Positions 2,505 through 39,748 of a stretch of DNA of 55,025 nt are shown one piece after another. The stretch covers positions 1 through 55,025 of the forward strand of contig JADBJK010000037.1 in NCBI GenBank assembly GCA_014874485.1, read 5' to 3'. The position numbers were made by a program, and so were the translations under genes. Numbering within the stretch: the stretch's first letter is position 1; each line of letters begins with the position of its first letter. Under the pieces are notes generated by a model, which searched no databases, was not told where the DNA came from, and saw only the letters and a program-made list of their open reading frames with translations. This DNA is from Chloroflexota bacterium (GTDB taxonomy: Bacteria > Chloroflexota > Anaerolineae > DTLA01).

Positions 2505-3311
2505 ATGACTCGCAAACGGTGGCTTATCATGGGGGGCATCGCCGTCGCGGTGGCGGCGATTGTGCTGCTGCGCCTGTTGGGCGGCGGCGAGAGCGACAAG
2601 GTCTGGGCGCGCATCCGGCGCGAGGGTGTCCTGCGCGTCGGGATGGACGCCAGTTACCCTCCCTTTGAGTTCGTGAACGGCGAGGGGAAGTTCCACGGGC
2701 TGGACGTGGACCTGGCCCAGGCGCTGGCCGACCGGTGGGGTGTGCGGTTGGAAATCGCCAACGTGGGGTTTGACGGGCTGTACGACGCGCTGCGGGACAA
2801 GAAGTTTGACCTCATCGTGTCGGCGCTCCCCTACGACCCGTTCCTGCGCAAGGATTTTGCTTTCTCGTACGCGTACTTCAACGCGGGCCTGCGCTGGGTG
2901 GCCCGGCCCGATGTCCTGGCGACGCTCGGCGACCCTTCGGGCAGGCGCGTGGCGGTGCAGACCGGCTCGGCTGCCGACGTGCAGGCGCGGACGCTCCAGC
3001 GGCGCTTCCCGCAGATGGCGCTGGTCATGCGGGACGAGGTGGCGCAGGTGGGCGAGGCGCTGGCCATCGGGGATGCCGACGCGGCCATCCTGGACGGCGT
3101 GAGCGCGCTCCAGTTCGTGGCCGCGCACACGGAGTTTGCCGTCGGCGACACGCTCCTCACCGACGAGCCGTATGTCATCGCCATGCCGCTGGACGCGCCC
3201 ACGCTGAAGCGCGAGGTCAACGCGGCGCTGGTGGATTTCCGCGAGTCGGGGCGGATGGACGCCTGGGTCGCGGCGTGGGTGGGCGCGCCGACTACGGGGC
3301 CAGGACGTTGA
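2505..3311 (+). CDS. Extracellular solute-binding protein, family 3 (polar amino acid type)
   Basis: This 268-aa protein has the SBP_bac_3 fold that captures amino acids or similar small ligands for an ABC importer. A hydrophobic N-terminal segment (about residues 6-25) without a lipobox Cys suggests a membrane anchor. The family signature follows: LRVGMDASYPPFEF, then FHGLDVDLAQALADRWG and FDGLYDALRDKKFDLIVSAL. The start is fixed by AGGAGGG ending 4 bases before ATG 2505. No permease or ATPase gene is adjacent, so its partners lie elsewhere or it has a sensing role. The 3' end overlaps the convergent lipoprotein gene by 20 bp. Confidence 0.85.
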   Translation: MTRKRWLIMGGIAVAVAAIVLLRLLGGGESDKVWARIRREGVLRVGMDASYPPFEFVNGEGKFHGLDVDLAQALADRWGVRLEIANVGFDGLYDALRDKKFDLIVSALPYDPFLRKDFAFSYAYFNAGLRWVARPDVLATLGDPSGRRVAVQTGSAADVQARTLQRRFPQMALVMRDEVAQVGEALAIGDADAAILDGVSALQFVAAHTEFAVGDTLLTDEPYVIAMPLDAPTLKREVNAALVDFRESGRMDAWVAAWVGAPTTGPGR

Positions 3312-8040: not shown

Positions 8041-8458
8041 GGGGGTTATCCAGGAATCGCACGCATCGCCGCGAATAGGAGGACAGGTCCGACGCACTTC
8101 CGATGGGTGGGCGAAGGGCGAGGGCGGCTGGCGGGGGCTATCCACGAATCGCACGCATCGCCGCGAATAGGAGGGCAGGTGCGACGCACTTCCGATGGGT
8201 GGGCGAAGGGCGAGGGCGGCTGGCGGGGGCTATCCACGAATCGCACGAATCGCCGCGAATAGGAGGACAGGTGCGACGCACTTCCGAAGTGCGTCGCACC
8301 TTGACGGCTGGCGGGGGTTATCCGCGAATCGCGCGAATTGCCGCGAATAGGAGGACAGGTGCGACGCACTTCCGATGGGTGGGCGAAGGGCGAGGGCGGC
8401 TGGCGGGGGTTATCCGCGAATCGCGCGAATTGCCGCGAGTAGGGCAGAGTGTTGCGGG
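8041..8458. repeat. Five tandem ~92-bp repeats
   Basis: Using GCGAATAGGA as an anchor, copies sit at 8071, 8163, 8255, 8343 and (as GCGAGTAGGG) 8435, so the spacing is 92, 92, 88 and 92 bp. The 88-bp unit has its second half replaced by the palindrome at 8269-8301. This fills the gap between two convergent genes; open frames across it are artefacts. Confidence 0.85.
8269..8301. repeat. Perfect palindrome built on GTGCGACGCAC
   Basis: Arms of 16 bp (8269-8284 and 8286-8301) flank a single base. The core GTGCGACGCAC recurs in inverted pairs at 39712-39748 and 48676-48709, always in intergenic DNA near gene ends, so it may serve as a bidirectional terminator or be a small mobile palindrome. Confidence 0.75.
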
Positions 8459-8459
8459 G

Positions 8460-9083
8460 TTACAGCAGGCGCGGTCCCAGGGCCTGGAGGAACAGGGCCG
8501 GCTTGCGGGTGCGGATGCCGTCCGCGCCGCGCTCTATCCACTCCGAGATTCCCTCTCGCGTATCCAGCACGCCCACATACACGCGGATGCGCTTCTCCCA
8601 CGACAGGAGCATCACTTCCTCGTCGGCGACCTGGGGCGTGCAGACAATGGCGTCCACGGCCTGACGCTGGATGAAGTCATTGGCCGTCTCGGGGTCCTCG
8701 GTCTCCAGGGCGATGGCGATGCGGTGCTCCGTGAGGGACGTTACCTGCATTACGCCCACGTGCCGGGCGATGAACGTGAAGCGGGCGCTGGTGTCGGTGT
8801 CCTGGGCGAGGCGAATCAGCGGTATGGCGGCCGCGCTGTCGGGGACGTGGATGTGGATGCCCATGCGTTCGGGGAGCACCTCCAGAAGCCGCGCCATGGG
8901 CACAGGCCCGTGGCGGGTTACCACGGCGAGGTCCTTGGTCGTGGGCTGCACCAGCGTGCACTCCACGGCGTCCACGTGCTCGGCGATGCCGTCGTTCGGT
9001 CCGCCGAGTTCCAGCCAGGGCGCGTAGGCGTGGAGCAGGGCGATGCAGGCGATGTCTGCTGGTGGGCGGCGGTTAGCGTTCAT
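8460..9083 (-). CDS. GDPD-like protein with degenerate active site
   Basis: This 207-aa protein reads like a glycerophosphodiester phosphodiesterase barrel: DAVECTLVQPTTKDLAVVTR matches the family stretch around the second Glu-x-Asp pair, and GADGIRTRKPALFLQAL matches the closing strand and helix. The usual N-terminal His-Arg-Gly and Glu-Asn-Thr catalytic motifs are not present, and the Glu-x-Asp pair is E-C-T, so hydrolysis by the classical mechanism is doubtful. ATG 9083 is used; it overlaps the upstream ROK gene by 11 bp, implying translational coupling and shared regulation. It could be a pseudoenzyme that binds a phosphorylated ligand. Confidence 0.6.
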   Translation of the reverse strand: MNANRRPPADIACIALLHAYAPWLELGGPNDGIAEHVDAVECTLVQPTTKDLAVVTRHGPVPMARLLEVLPERMGIHIHVPDSAAAIPLIRLAQDTDTSARFTFIARHVGVMQVTSLTEHRIAIALETEDPETANDFIQRQAVDAIVCTPQVADEEVMLLSWEKRIRVYVGVLDTREGISEWIERGADGIRTRKPALFLQALGPRLL

Positions 9084-35667: not shown

Positions 35668-35696
35668 TTGACACGTGCATCGGGCGGTGGTATAAT
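35668..35696 (+). promoter_or_regulatory. Perfect consensus promoter for the PocR-domain regulator
   Basis: TTGACA (35668-35673), 17-bp spacer, TATAAT (35691-35696). Transcription would start about 12 bases before the ATG, leaving a very short leader with GAGGTG as the ribosome binding site. Confidence 0.85.
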
Positions 35697-35714: not shown

Positions 35715-36485
35715 ATGGATGCGCTTTTGACCACGCGCCAGTTGCAGCAACTGCTCCAGGTGGACCGCATCACCATCTACCGCATGCTGGCCGACGGTCG
35801 GCTGAAGGGCATCAAGGTCGGCGGGCAGTGGCGGTTCCCGCGCCAGGAGATTGAGCGATGGCTTCAGGAGCAACGCGCGGCGACCGACGCAAGCCGCCCC
35901 GCGCCCGATGCCGAAGTCGCAGCCCCATCCCCGCAACCGCTGCCCTTGTCCTGTGTCCGCGCCATCCAAGACATCTTCGCCGAAGCGCTGGGCGTGGCGT
36001 CCGTTACCACCGCCGCGGATGGGTCGCCCCTCACTCCCGTGAGCAACTGTTGCGCCTTCTGCCGCCTCGTTCTGGACACCGAAGAGGGGCGGCGGCGATG
36101 CGAATCGTCGTGGCGAGAGGCTGGCCTGCGCAGCGGGTCTCCGCGCCTGCTCACGTGCCACGCGGGGCTCCGCTACCTGTCGGGGCGCATAGAGGTACAC
36201 GGGCAATTCGTGGCGGCTGTCCACGTGGGCCAGTTTGTTGGCCCCGCCGAGAACCTGCGCGAAGGGTGGGCGGACCGATTGCGGGAACTCGCCGCGGCGA
36301 CGGGCGTGCCCGCGAAGGACCTTGAGGCGGCGCTGCCCAGCGTGCACGTCCTGACCGAGGAGCGCCAGAAGCAGATGCCTCGCCTGCTCGGTCGCGTGGC
36401 CGCTACCTTCTCGGAAATCGGCGAGGAGCGGCTGAACCTGCTGGGGCGCCTCCAGCGCATCGCCGAAATGACGGCGTATCCGTGA
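35715..36485 (+). CDS. Helix-turn-helix regulator with PocR sensory domain
   Basis: A 256-aa predicted transcription factor. Residues 1-55 are an excisionase/MerR-type winged helix (LLTTRQLQQLLQVDRITIYR then KVGGQWRFPRQEIERWL). Residues about 75-220 are a PocR domain with the conserved Cys/His set: NCCAFCRL, RRRCESSW and LLTCHAGL. PocR domains sense small hydrocarbon-derived ligands in propanediol regulators and relatives. Here it is coupled to a BldC-like DNA-binding domain rather than the usual AraC domain. The gene sits directly before the FAD/Fe-S oxidase, its most likely target. Confidence 0.85.
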   Translation: MDALLTTRQLQQLLQVDRITIYRMLADGRLKGIKVGGQWRFPRQEIERWLQEQRAATDASRPAPDAEVAAPSPQPLPLSCVRAIQDIFAEALGVASVTTAADGSPLTPVSNCCAFCRLVLDTEEGRRRCESSWREAGLRSGSPRLLTCHAGLRYLSGRIEVHGQFVAAVHVGQFVGPAENLREGWADRLRELAAATGVPAKDLEAALPSVHVLTEERQKQMPRLLGRVAATFSEIGEERLNLLGRLQRIAEMTAYP

Positions 36486-36552
36486 GCGACGGGCCTGCGC
36501 CTTGCAGGTGCAGGTTTCGGCGCGGTTGAGAATTCATGCAAGGAGATGGCAT

Positions 36553-39500
36553 ATGAGAACCCTACCCGTGTCGCTGCAACAGGAACTGCGGCAGATGTTC
36601 GGCCCCCGCGTCAATTTTGACACGATGGAGCGCAAGATTTACAGCCACGATGTCGGCGTCATGCCCAGGCTCATCAAGCCCATCATCGGCAACACCGTGT
36701 CCGCGGCCGTGGTCCAGCCCAAGAGCGAGGACGAACTCGTCGCCCTCGTGCGCTGGGCCAATCAGCACAAGGTCCCCCTGGTGCCCCGCGCCAAGGCCAC
36801 TTCGGGCTACGGCGGCGTCCTGCCCGTGAAGGGCGGCGTAACGGTGGACATGCACCGCCTTCGCAGGATTCTAGAGATAGACGCTCAGGCGATGACGGTG
36901 CGGGTGAGGCCGTCGGTGGTGTGGGGCGACCTGGAGAAGGAACTGAACAAGCAGGGCTTGGCCTTGCGCACGTACCCGTCCAGCGCGCCCTCGTCCACGG
37001 TGGGCGGGTGGCTGGCCCAGGGCGGCGTCGGCTATGGGGCCTACGAGTACGGCGCGTTTCGCCAGAACGTGGTCTCGGCGCGGGTGGTGCTGCCCAACGG
37101 CGAGGTGCGCGTCTTTGAGGGCGACGACCTGGGCCTCATCAGCGACGCCGAAGGCGGCACAGGCTTCATCACCGAGGTTACGCTGCGGGTTCGGAAGGCC
37201 GAGCCCGAGCAGGTGTGGGGCGTGCGGTTTGAGTCGGCGGCGAACCTGGCCGCGGCGCTGAAGGAGTTGCGGGAAGCGGGCGTGCCCCTCTGGTCGGTCA
37301 GTTTCATCAACCCGACGATGGCCCGCCTGAAGAACCGCCTGCCCGCCAAGTTGGAGCACGGCCATCCCGTTCACGAGCACCGTCCCACGATGCCCGAAGC
37401 CTATGTGGCCATTCTCGTTGGCCCCGCGGCCCGATGGCAGGACGCCGAGGCGCGCATTGGCCGCATCGTGGAGGCTCACGGCGGGGCGTTGCTGGACCGC
37501 GAAACCGCCGAGCACGAATGGGCGGAGCGGTTCAACCTGATGCACGTGAAGCGGCTGGGGCCTAGCCTGCTGCCGTCCGAAGTGGTCGTGCCGCTGGACA
37601 ACCTGGGCCAGGCGCTGAGCGAGATTGAGAAGTCGGTGCACCTGCCGCTGGTCATGGAGGGCCTGGTCAACGGCAACGGCGAAGTTACGCTGCTGGGGTT
37701 CATCCCCCACGACGAGCGCACCTTTGGGTACAACGTGGCCTTCGGCCTGGCGCTGACCGTCATCAAGATTGCCAAAAAGTACGGCGGGCGGCCCTATTCC
37801 ACGGGCTACTACTTCGCCAACGAGGCCGAGGCCGTCCTCGGTGCCGACCGCGTGCGACAACTGCGGGAATTCAAGAAAGCGGTGGACCCCAACGGAATCA
37901 TGAACCCAGGCAAGGTGCTGGGCAATGGCGTCATGGGCACGTTCATGGGCCTGGCCCAGACCTTTGAGCCCGTCATTCGGGTCATGGGCAACCAGTTCCG
38001 CCGCACGCCCGAGGAGCGCATCGCTGGCCAGGGCAAGCGCGGCATCCCCGACGACGTGGCCTGGTACGCCTATGCCTGCGCCCAGTGCGGCTACTGCGTG
38101 GACGAGTGCGACCAGTACTACGGGCGCGGGTGGGAGTCCGAGTCGCCCAGGGGGAAGTGGTACTTCCTGCGCGAGTACATGGAGGGCCGCGCGCAGATGA
38201 CCCAGGACTGGGTGGACAACTTCCTGGCCTGCACCACGTGCGAGGTCTGCAATGTCAAGTGCCCGCTGGAGTTGCCCATTGAGCCAGCGTGGCTCCAGAT
38301 GCGCGGCGAGTTGATCTACAAGGAGAACCGCCTGACCTTCCCGCCGTTTGAGATCATGCGCCAGTCGCTGCGCAAGGAGCGCAACATCTGGGCCAGTTAC
38401 AGCAAGGACCGGTCGGCGTGGGTGCCCGAGGAGTTGCAGGACAAGATTCGCTGGCGGGCCGACATCGGCTACTTCCCCGGATGCACGGCGTCGTATGTGG
38501 AGACGGACGTGGCCCAGGGGACGGCGCGGCTGCTCAATGCGGCCGGAATTGAGTTCACCTACATGGGCGACGGTGAGGCGTGCTGCGGCCTGCCGATGCT
38601 GGTCTCGGGCCAGTGGGATACCTGGGGCGAGATCATGCGGCACAATATCGCCGGCATGAAGGCCCGCGGCGTGAAGACGGTGGTTACGTCCTGCCCGGCG
38701 TGCTGGCTCTCGTGGAAGCAGTATTACCCGGAGTGGGCCAAGAAACTGGGCATAGAATACAACTTTGAAGTGCGCCACTACTCCGAATTGCTGGCCGAAA
38801 GGATCGCCAGCGGCCAGATGAAGTTCACGCACGAGGTTCCGCTGAAGGTTACGTGGCATGACTCGTGCCACATGGGCCGCGCCGGAGGCATCTACGAGCC
38901 GCCGCGCGAGGTGCTGAAGGCCATCCCGGGCGTGGAGTTCGTGGAGATGGAGCACAACCGCGACAACGCCCACTGCTGCGGCGGCGTGCTGAGCCTGCTG
39001 GAGGACCCCGAAGCCGCCAAAACCATCGGCAGCATGCGCCTGCAAGAGGCCGTGGGCACGGGCGCGCAGGCGCTGGTCGCCTCGTGCCCCTGCTGCGAGG
39101 TGCAGTTCCGCGTAACGGCGCGCAAGACCGGCGAGCAGATGCCCATCGTGGATCTGGCGCACCTGGCCGCCGAGGGCCTGGGGATTCAGATTCAGGATCC
39201 CACCGACTACGCCATGGACCTGTGGGGGACGTTTGAGGCGATGATTCGCCTGCTGAAGCCCGAGGCGATGGCCGACTTCATGGTGGGCCTGTTGCCGCAG
39301 ATGATTGACGCCATGCCTGGGCCATTCCCGGCGGTCATGAAGTGGCTGAAGCGGACATCGCCCGGCGTGAGGAACGCCATGCTGGCGGTCATGCGGCCCA
39401 TCATGCCCAAGATGTTCCCCATCCTGATGCCGGGGATGATGCCGAAGGTGATGCCCGACATGCTGGCGGCGGTGGAGAAAGTTGTGCCCATGCCGCCGCA

Positions 39501-39627
39501 CATGAAGGAGCAGATGCCCGAACTGATGCCCGCGGCCATGGAGAACCTGATGCCCAAGATGCTGCCGCTCATCATCCCGCATTTCATGCCGAAGATGGAG
39601 GCGTATCTCAAGGGCGAGTTGGCGTAG
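36553..39627 (+). CDS. FAD-linked oxidase fused to Fe-S (GlpC/HdrD-type) subunit, with Met-Pro tail
   Basis: A 1024-aa membrane-associated dehydrogenase for a 2-hydroxy acid (lactate, glycolate or similar). Residues 45-470 are FAD-binding type 4 plus C-terminal oxidase domains (PLVPRAKATSGYGG, SSAPSSTVGGWLAQGGVGYG, PNGIMNPGKVLG). Two [4Fe-4S] motifs follow at C509/C512/C515/C519 and C560/C563/C566/C570. Two CCG domains (FPGCTAS...EACCGLP and DSCHMGR...HCCGGV) resemble HdrD/GlpC electron-transfer modules. The last ~80 residues hold 17 methionines in repeated MP pairs, an unusual tail. AGGAG precedes ATG 36553. Electrons probably go to a quinone or ferredoxin-type partner. Regulation by the upstream PocR protein is likely. 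Confidence 0.88.
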   Translation: MRTLPVSLQQELRQMFGPRVNFDTMERKIYSHDVGVMPRLIKPIIGNTVSAAVVQPKSEDELVALVRWANQHKVPLVPRAKATSGYGGVLPVKGGVTVDMHRLRRILEIDAQAMTVRVRPSVVWGDLEKELNKQGLALRTYPSSAPSSTVGGWLAQGGVGYGAYEYGAFRQNVVSARVVLPNGEVRVFEGDDLGLISDAEGGTGFITEVTLRVRKAEPEQVWGVRFESAANLAAALKELREAGVPLWSVSFINPTMARLKNRLPAKLEHGHPVHEHRPTMPEAYVAILVGPAARWQDAEARIGRIVEAHGGALLDRETAEHEWAERFNLMHVKRLGPSLLPSEVVVPLDNLGQALSEIEKSVHLPLVMEGLVNGNGEVTLLGFIPHDERTFGYNVAFGLALTVIKIAKKYGGRPYSTGYYFANEAEAVLGADRVRQLREFKKAVDPNGIMNPGKVLGNGVMGTFMGLAQTFEPVIRVMGNQFRRTPEERIAGQGKRGIPDDVAWYAYACAQCGYCVDECDQYYGRGWESESPRGKWYFLREYMEGRAQMTQDWVDNFLACTTCEVCNVKCPLELPIEPAWLQMRGELIYKENRLTFPPFEIMRQSLRKERNIWASYSKDRSAWVPEELQDKIRWRADIGYFPGCTASYVETDVAQGTARLLNAAGIEFTYMGDGEACCGLPMLVSGQWDTWGEIMRHNIAGMKARGVKTVVTSCPACWLSWKQYYPEWAKKLGIEYNFEVRHYSELLAERIASGQMKFTHEVPLKVTWHDSCHMGRAGGIYEPPREVLKAIPGVEFVEMEHNRDNAHCCGGVLSLLEDPEAAKTIGSMRLQEAVGTGAQALVASCPCCEVQFRVTARKTGEQMPIVDLAHLAAEGLGIQIQDPTDYAMDLWGTFEAMIRLLKPEAMADFMVGLLPQMIDAMPGPFPAVMKWLKRTSPGVRNAMLAVMRPIMPKMFPILMPGMMPKVMPDMLAAVEKVVPMPPHMKEQMPELMPAAMENLMPKMLPLIIPHFMPKMEAYLKGELA

Positions 39628-39656
39628 CCCTGGACACCGTGGGCTTATCACCGCGG

Positions 39657-39692
39657 AGACCGCAGAGAGTTCCTGACGAATCTCTGCGGTCT
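39657..39692. terminator. Bidirectional hairpin between convergent genes
   Basis: Perfect 12-bp arms AGACCGCAGAGA (39657-39668) and its complement (39681-39692) with a 12-base loop, lying between the FAD oxidase and enolase stops. There is no T-run on either side, so terminator function is only likely. Confidence 0.5.
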
Positions 39693-39711
39693 CGGTGTGC
39701 TCTGCGGCGAA

Positions 39712-39748
39712 CCAAGTGCGGCGCACCTGCGAGGCGCGTCGCACTTGG
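39712..39748. repeat. GTGCG-CGCAC palindrome, copy 2
   Basis: Arms 39712-39726 and 39734-39748 match with two mismatches and share the core of 8269-8301 and 48676-48709. It begins 2 bp after the enolase stop codon on the minus-strand side. Confidence 0.65.

Follow-up and report, generated by a model that had tools for sequence, protein, structure and literature searches.

A methionine-proline tail at the end of a flavin and iron-sulfur dehydrogenase is a real conserved domain, and it goes with distinctive residues at the end of the enzyme where the iron-sulfur clusters lie. The enzyme is encoded on the plus strand of a 55,025-nucleotide stretch of a Chloroflexota genome (contig JADBJK010000037.1 of assembly GCA_014874485.1), which we refer to as the window, and its residues are numbered throughout on the 1,024-amino-acid protein that starts at ATG 36553. 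A sequence-only reading of this DNA had drawn attention to 17 Met in the last 80 or so residues of the protein, and that count was exact: the last 80 residues contain 17 Met and 15 Pro. Specifically, the 91 residues encoded by positions 39352-39627 on the plus strand include 18 Met and 16 Pro, with nine MP dipeptides among them. At the core rates of 2.9% for Met and 5.7% for Pro, the binomial probability of at least 18 Met in 91 residues is 2e-10, and that of at least 16 Pro is 5e-5. What has the appearance of a low-complexity tail is thus the conserved hallmark of a subfamily, and its presence predicts a cysteine beside one of the iron-sulfur clusters. The explanation that we prefer, tentatively and with a little less than even confidence, is that the enzyme is a cytoplasmic flavin/iron-sulfur dehydrogenase and that its tail, a conserved hydrophobic domain, serves for docking on the side where electrons leave. 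If true, this would be a way for a soluble dehydrogenase to reach a hydrophobic acceptor with no need of membrane helices.

The tail as a conserved domain

The domain is wider than the Met-rich segment that was first noticed. Judged from alignments A2 and A3 and from a structural model of the tail alone, it begins at about residue 884, behind the second CCG domain of the enzyme, and extends to residue 1024 (39202-39624). In A2, which comprises 38 tailed and 10 tailless homologues, the Pro and Met columns of the tail stand at fixed positions, and four Pro (922, 956, 989, and 993) and one Met (947) are invariant over the 38 tailed rows. Met accounts for 43% of the combined Met, Leu, Ile, Val, and Phe of the tail versus 9% in the core, and the Met fraction of the tail (0.15 to 0.24) is nearly independent of the GC content of the locus, which ranges from 0.36 to 0.69 (r = -0.28). 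When the window gene was compared with its nearest relative, the ratio of nonsynonymous to synonymous substitution rates (dN/dS) was 0.04 for the tail and 0.135 for the core, and two more distant pairs gave 0.17 and 0.21 for the tail versus 0.26 and 0.30 for the core. By this measure, the tail is under purifying selection. The mean pairwise identity of the tail (46%) lies inside the range of the core domains (42 to 62%) and is not higher. NCBIfam has no family for the tail and Pfam none for the window member; across the 38 tails, Pfam gave one weak match in each of three members, to families that differ from one another.

Where Met is replaced, the substitutes are almost always hydrophobic. 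The 24 Met-majority columns contain 196 non-Met cells, 194 of which hold Leu, Ile, Val, Ala, Phe, or Tyr, while the remaining two hold Gly or Pro. This pattern bears on the earlier suggestion that the Met residues of the tail could be ligands for a soft metal such as Cu(I). Cu(I) sites often have Met spaced by 3 to 4 residues, and both the spacing and the number of Met in the tail would suit such a role. Yet because the Met columns change to other hydrophobic residues, with a single Met invariant in 38 rows, the tail does not have the conserved Met ligands of Cu(I) proteins. Furthermore, 35 of 38 tails contain no Cys, His numbers 0 to 3 per tail, and an ArsR-type gene lies directly upstream in only 4 of 38 tailed loci. 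We therefore abandon this suggestion as highly improbable.

The prolines recur at intervals of four. Within residues 884 to 1024, a Pro-to-Pro spacing of four occurs nine times versus 2.9 in shuffled sequences, and 2 of 5,000 shuffles were as high. The repeat is concentrated in two long arms, the first spanning residues 951 to 977 (39403-39483; Pro 952, 956, 960, 964, and 968) and the second spanning residues 982 to 1019 (39496-39609; Pro 982, 989, 993, 1001, 1005, 1009, and 1013). Both arms are built on a unit of Pro, a polar residue, a hydrophobic residue, and Met or another hydrophobic residue, and in both the hydrophobic periodicity along the aligned columns is strongest at 91 degrees per residue, equivalent to 3.96 residues per turn, a peak that was matched by 3 and 0 of 2,000 column shuffles in the first and second arms, respectively. 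The tail is hardly a tandem array at the DNA level, where the sole repeat reported inside it is one of 12 bases in 2.6 copies (39425-39455). Among 847 heuristically called genes, the only ones with runs of at least three Pro-tetrad units were family members and a single free-standing tail.

AlphaFold returned confident models of the whole protein (predicted local distance difference test [pLDDT], 91.0; predicted template modeling score [pTM], 0.89) and of the tail alone (pLDDT, 91.6; pTM, 0.82). In both, short predicted helices are followed by two long ones, corresponding to the arms, that run through the prolines. AlphaFold may favor helices for sequences of this kind, and the models raise the structural question of whether an alpha helix with Pro at every fourth residue is possible over several turns. 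Structure prediction, which had been proposed as a check, thus yielded two long proline-studded helices, but Foldseek found no match to the tail in the PDB. A second fold search, which had one chain, likewise gave nothing. A fold search of a viral library with the tail gave one meaningless match only, and PDB sequence searches with the tail gave chance-level matches only. In the literature, we recognized no paper that describes the Met-Pro tail, in a search outside which most subscription journals fell.

Covariation with the iron-sulfur site

The presence of the tail coincides with a division in the rest of the protein. In a tree built from core sequences without the tail, a single change with full support (Shimodaira-Hasegawa-like approximate likelihood ratio test [SH-aLRT], 100) parts the 38 tailed rows from the 10 tailless ones, and no tailless row falls within the tailed clade of this 48-row tree, which favors the explanation given above. 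The tree came from a quick method without bootstrap and included five rows of odd composition; we placed its root on the tailless rows, and so gain of the tail is not told apart from loss.

Six core positions are oppositely fixed in tailed and tailless proteins (Phe/Leu599, Ile/Phe612, Thr/Trp645, Pro/Tyr681, Pro/Ala846, and Cys/Gly847), and two further positions, 341 and 853, are nearly so. Four of the six lie no more than three residues from cluster cysteines: position 645 directly follows the ligand Cys644, position 681 is three past Cys678, and positions 846 and 847 are flanked by Cys845 and Cys848 in a CPCC motif (residues 845-848; 39085-39096), of which Cys847 is the extra cysteine. Residue 847 is Cys in 38/38 tailed rows and Gly in 10/10 tailless rows. 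All ten cluster cysteines, five per CCG domain, are present in each of the 48 rows.

The association held in proteins outside A2. An archaeal tailed homologue, which was found after A2 was made and whose core is 39% identical to that of the window protein (337/859) and 45% identical to the nearest row, carried the tailed-type residue at eight of eight positions. Among held-out proteins, the tailed L106 (71% identity to the nearest row) has Cys847 and the tailless L104 (52%) has Gly847. Three tailed and two tailless proteins from four other loci (both genes of L075, L061, L064, and L101) agree as well; these are 94 to 99.6% identical to A2 rows and add little, and one more held-out row, L063, was not counted since it is the same gene as L077 of A2. 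Eight more distant CCG proteins have Gln, Asn, Ser, Lys, Gly, or Thr at 847, and none has Thr at 645. Cys847 and Thr645, alone among these residues, were each seen exclusively with the tail.

These results also speak to whether the tail has no function and is a product of low-complexity drift. Its patchy presence would suit drift, as would the tailless relatives in at least nine genomes that also hold a tailed gene, and the sequence-only reading had regarded homologues with the tail absent or not Met-rich, and with partner genes unchanged, as a mark of it. Tail-free homologues do exist, with lengths of 895 to 958 amino acids, and they bear out the statement that the tail is not general to this class of enzyme. 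Yet they make up a clade of their own, in which the residues at the iron-sulfur sites are different. With a dN/dS of 0.04, no tailless row in the tailed clade, and linked core residues, drift is already contradicted, and we give it next to no credence.

A role for Cys847 is suggested by EtfD, which gave the closest sequence match in the PDB for the CCG part (9ojn). In mycobacterial EtfD, according to PMC13083937, His583, which occupies the matching place in the CxxC of the first CCG domain, supplies the last ligand of the noncubane cluster D2, a cluster that takes its cysteines from the second domain. Because the CCG domains are pseudosymmetric, Cys847 would, by analogy with His583, reach the cluster of the first CCG domain.

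Possible functions of the tail

In the docking explanation, electrons from the substrate would pass from the flavin adenine dinucleotide (FAD) to ferredoxin-type clusters and on to the pair of CCG clusters. It is at this CCG end that the tailed branch differs (Cys847 and Thr645) and that it carries a helical domain with what would be a broad Met/Leu-lined face. That face could lay the electron-exit side on a hydrophobic target, which would most likely be either the surface of the membrane or an acceptor that is lipophilic or held in the membrane. The tail would then stand in for the transmembrane part that EtfD possesses, and menaquinone would be the natural acceptor. Met is perhaps preferred for its flexible side chain, which could provide a soft, reversible greasy surface, as has been proposed for the Met-rich domains of SRP54 and Sgt2. 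A more specific version, which we regard as rather unlikely in full, is that the tail is an undescribed module, a two-helix hairpin with Pro at each fourth residue, that evolved together with the extra CCG cysteine as one electron-exit unit, letting a soluble flavoenzyme reach a membrane-held acceptor without a transmembrane subunit. The hairpin would then have about four residues per turn and a stripe of missing backbone hydrogen bonds, with the Met/Leu stripe beside it.

Comparison with known systems indicates which parts of this arrangement are shared. By structural alignment, the window protein resembles EtfD (9ojn; Z, 31.0; root mean square deviation [rmsd], 2.5; 373 residues), with two CCG domains in both, and HdrB (8rwn_B; Z, 24.7; rmsd, 2.5; 248 residues). 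It has the two CCG domains with five Cys each that characterize EtfD/HdrD-type proteins. In contrast to EtfD, HdrD, and HdrB, it has a flavin domain fused in front, the extra Cys847, and the Met-Pro tail behind. EtfD spans the membrane with five helices and passes electrons on toward menaquinone, as described in PMC13083937. The membrane-bound EtfD and HdrDE systems have a transmembrane region of their own or a membrane subunit encoded alongside. In the window protein, whose highest 19-residue hydropathy is 1.19, no transmembrane region was recognized, and no nonregulator family recurs beside more than two of the 38 tailed genes.

The front of the protein has the FAD fold common to LDHD and GlcD (mLDHD, 8jdp; Z, 33.0; rmsd, 2.5; 428 residues). 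GDGN and GEHG are the metal-site motifs of these D-2-hydroxyacid dehydrogenases. None of the 48 rows of A2 contains GDGN and a single one (L048) contains GEHG, and the window protein has neither. Since the FAD-oxidase_C domain (A2, residues 364-425) is without GDGN in tailed and tailless forms alike, all of these enzymes may use some other substrate. YdiJ, a D-2-hydroxyglutarate dehydrogenase, is like the window enzyme a fusion of FAD, 4Fe-4S, and CCG parts in one chain. With 65.8 bits versus a curated cut-off of 1350 for the YdiJ family (NF049975), the window protein is not a member.

The genes around the enzyme offer one reason to assign docking to the tail itself, namely, that there is no widely shared partner gene alongside. 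Among the direct neighbors of the 38 tailed genes, no nonregulator family occurs in more than two loci. These neighborhoods were drawn from open reading frames (ORFs) called by script, with one member per regulator cluster scanned.

Several observations weigh against the docking explanation. The hydrophobic moment at 100 degrees is only 0.14 and 0.08 in the two arms, and therefore a plain amphipathic helix is a poor description of them; an amphipathic helix at the membrane, together with quinone reduction, is what marks monotopic quinone-linked dehydrogenases. The net charge of the tail ranges from -8 to +6 across rows, which does not indicate a cationic membrane surface. In some other rows the 19-residue hydropathy reaches 1.6 to 1.9, once inside the tail (L012, 1.78), and their sequences leave room for a membrane-inserted stretch in some other members. 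Pro681, Pro846, and Ile612 are also present in some distant CCG proteins that have no tail, so these residues may be ancestral and have changed in the tailless branch, and the tailless L104 carries Pro341. In L081 and L083, which are near-identical loci, the gene directly downstream encodes a Na+/H+ exchanger, a membrane protein. Quinone genes were matched in part of the carriers. Of 41 carrier genomes, 18 have an MqnA-family gene over the cut-off and 9 have MenA over the cut-off, 25 in all, leaving 9 with only a sub-cut-off MenA match and 7 with neither MqnA nor MenA. Two of these seven gave strong COX1 matches, and therefore some genomes that do use quinones probably escape the gene test, which counts neither for nor against a quinone acceptor. 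Finally, we infer the docking, the contact with a membrane, quinone, or partner, the acceptor, and the substrate, as well as the electron path and the roles of Cys847 and Met. Of the roles that the sequence-only reading had named, hydrophobic docking of this kind still seems the likeliest, but its term "amphipathic" is strained for a period of 91 rather than 100 degrees.

Alternatively, the tail could be an oligomerization domain or an internal lid, with Met/Leu faces that pack within the hairpin or between subunits and so shield the CCG cavity from water or oxygen. The predicted helices, modeled with high confidence for a single chain, are compatible with this, and covariation with residues beside the CCG clusters suits a lid equally well as a dock. 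In addition, the cluster cavity of EtfD is shielded, maybe as an adaptation to aerobic conditions, according to the authors of PMC13083937. However, a COX1-family gene was found in 20 of 41 carriers, in a test that may include nitric oxide reductases and outside which cytochrome bd falls, so oxygen protection is no obvious common need. We consider a lid or oligomerization domain somewhat unlikely. The same count weakens, without removing, the idea that the Met residues scavenge oxidants near the clusters.

Another alternative is a helical hand rich in Met, with which the enzyme would hold either a lipophilic substrate or a hydrophobic helix of some membrane partner encoded elsewhere, in the manner of the SRP54 M and Sgt2 C (STI1) domains. 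In PMC8010706, those domains are described as having Met-rich amphipathic helices with helix-breaking prolines, and the Met richness, amphipathic helices, and conserved helix-breaking Pro of the tail resemble that description. Short free-standing tails in three genomes would also fit a binding module, although they may be decay remnants. The likeness is in composition and helices only, an analogy, and the tail differs in having two long arms with Pro about every fourth residue. Searches gave no convincing match to SRP54-M or STI1; apart from the three weak and differing Pfam matches among 38 members, there was no PDB fold match, and no widely shared partner gene lies nearby. Moreover, the Sgt2 domain alone is largely random coil, as reported in PMC8010706, whereas the tail alone was modeled with confidence. 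A helical hand therefore appears quite improbable to us, and docking on the electron-exit side remains the explanation that we prefer.

Gene structure, distribution, and neighbors

The frame of the enzyme is open from TTG 36502 to 39627 on the plus strand. The TTG is probably too early a start, and ATG 36553 is preferred because several homologues start at that point. The resulting gene (36553-39627) encodes a fused FAD oxidase, ferredoxin, and double CCG protein, in agreement with the class of FAD and iron-sulfur oxidoreductase to which the sequence-only reading had assigned it. By Pfam, it consists of a FAD_binding_4 domain (36703-37113; PF01565, 7e-42), a FAD-oxidase_C domain without the GDGN motif (37204-37917; PF02913, 7e-14), a 4Fe-4S dicluster domain (38074-38274; PF13534, 3e-10), a first CCG domain with Cys644, 677, 678, 714, and 717 (38458-38787, limits approximate; two stretches of PF02754), and a second CCG domain with Cys772, 808, 809, 845, and 848 (38848-39111; best stretch of PF02754). 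An antisense ORF of 957 amino acids (36871-39744, minus strand) spans most of the gene and is His-rich opposite the Met-rich sense strand. It is probably a shadow in GC-rich DNA and was set aside as the gene because the plus-strand protein is conserved in other phyla.

The tail was found in Chloroflexota, Bacillota, one member of the Spirochaetaceae, and one archaeon. In a search of relatives, the full protein was present in 9 of 60 genomes, its own included. A profile of the tail matched 13 places in 12 of 301 Chloroflexota genomes, with nine on frames of more than 1,020 amino acids (eight genomes), two on short frames of 135 and 108 amino acids, and two weak. In the phylum of genome G350, the profile matched 29 of 199 genomes: 24 with a family gene (one split and one with an incomplete frame), one with a 69-amino-acid frame, and four with weak matches. 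Three of the weak matches were viewed; by eye, one resembled a phage tape-measure protein, and the other two consisted of simple repeats, MPRL or PSIF. At least 32 of the 199 genomes of this phylum contained a relative at E 1e-90, with up to four candidates scored per genome, so that tailed and tailless counts are lower bounds. The 44 places recovered there include at least 24 tailed genes (one being the back half of a split gene) and at least 16 tailless genes, together with three distant ones (29 to 34% identity) and the front half of a split gene. Tailed and tailless genes occur together in at least nine genomes of the phylum, 9 to 10 kb apart in three of them. From these sets, A2 leaves out the near-duplicates of G702, G785, and G820, the split gene of G823, and six of the 16 tailless places; some of these served as held-out rows. 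In the order of Bacillus marasmi, 1 of 199 genomes had the full protein, as did 1 of 149 genomes from the phylum of the Spirochaetaceae genome, in each case the starting genome itself. In the phylum of a Thorarchaeota genome, the tail profile matched a family gene in 1 of 148 genomes. Plasmid records gave no match at E 1e-40.

Three genomes contain parts of the tail on short frames. In L115 (G870:C7), the second arm stands free on the 69-amino-acid frame (about 2653-2860, minus strand), with up to 76% identity to a tailed homologue over 55 residues, and no enzyme core was found on the 6-kb stretch. A promoter-like site with 12 of 12 consensus bases lies upstream of this arm, which is divergent from genes for a ferredoxin and an aldehyde ferredoxin oxidoreductase. 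In L054 (G073:C115; 5479-5877, minus strand) and L055 (G169:C57; about 8343-8558), short frames hold most or part of the tail, and no core was found on either contig stretch. The frames in L054 and L055 may each be a small protein, a decay remnant, or an assembly error.

In the window, the enzyme gene is preceded by a regulator gene (35715-36485, plus strand) with an HTH_17 domain (PF12728, 2e-15) and a PocR sensory domain (PF10114, 1e-31), and the two look like a two-gene unit. In front of the regulator gene, a consensus scan found a perfect sigma-70-type promoter-like site, TTGACA-17-TATAAT (12 of 12 bases; 35668-35696, plus strand), in a GC-rich genome; the scan found two sites versus a mean of 0.6 in shuffles, which is not in itself a sign of function. 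Among the 38 tailed genes, six have a relative of this HTH-PocR regulator directly upstream, and each of the six belongs to a Chloroflexota locus. Overall, a regulator-cluster gene is directly upstream in 12 of 38 tailed genes (HTH-PocR in 6, ArsR in 4, and XRE in 2) and in 12 of 12 tailless genes (XRE in 5, TetR in 4, and a LuxR-type cluster in 3). Elsewhere, a pyridine-nucleotide-disulfide oxidoreductase with a rhodanese domain overlaps the frame of the tailed enzyme in L096 (4683-9478), and a protein with two rhodanese stretches is encoded downstream of the tailed enzyme in L012 (13370-14455).

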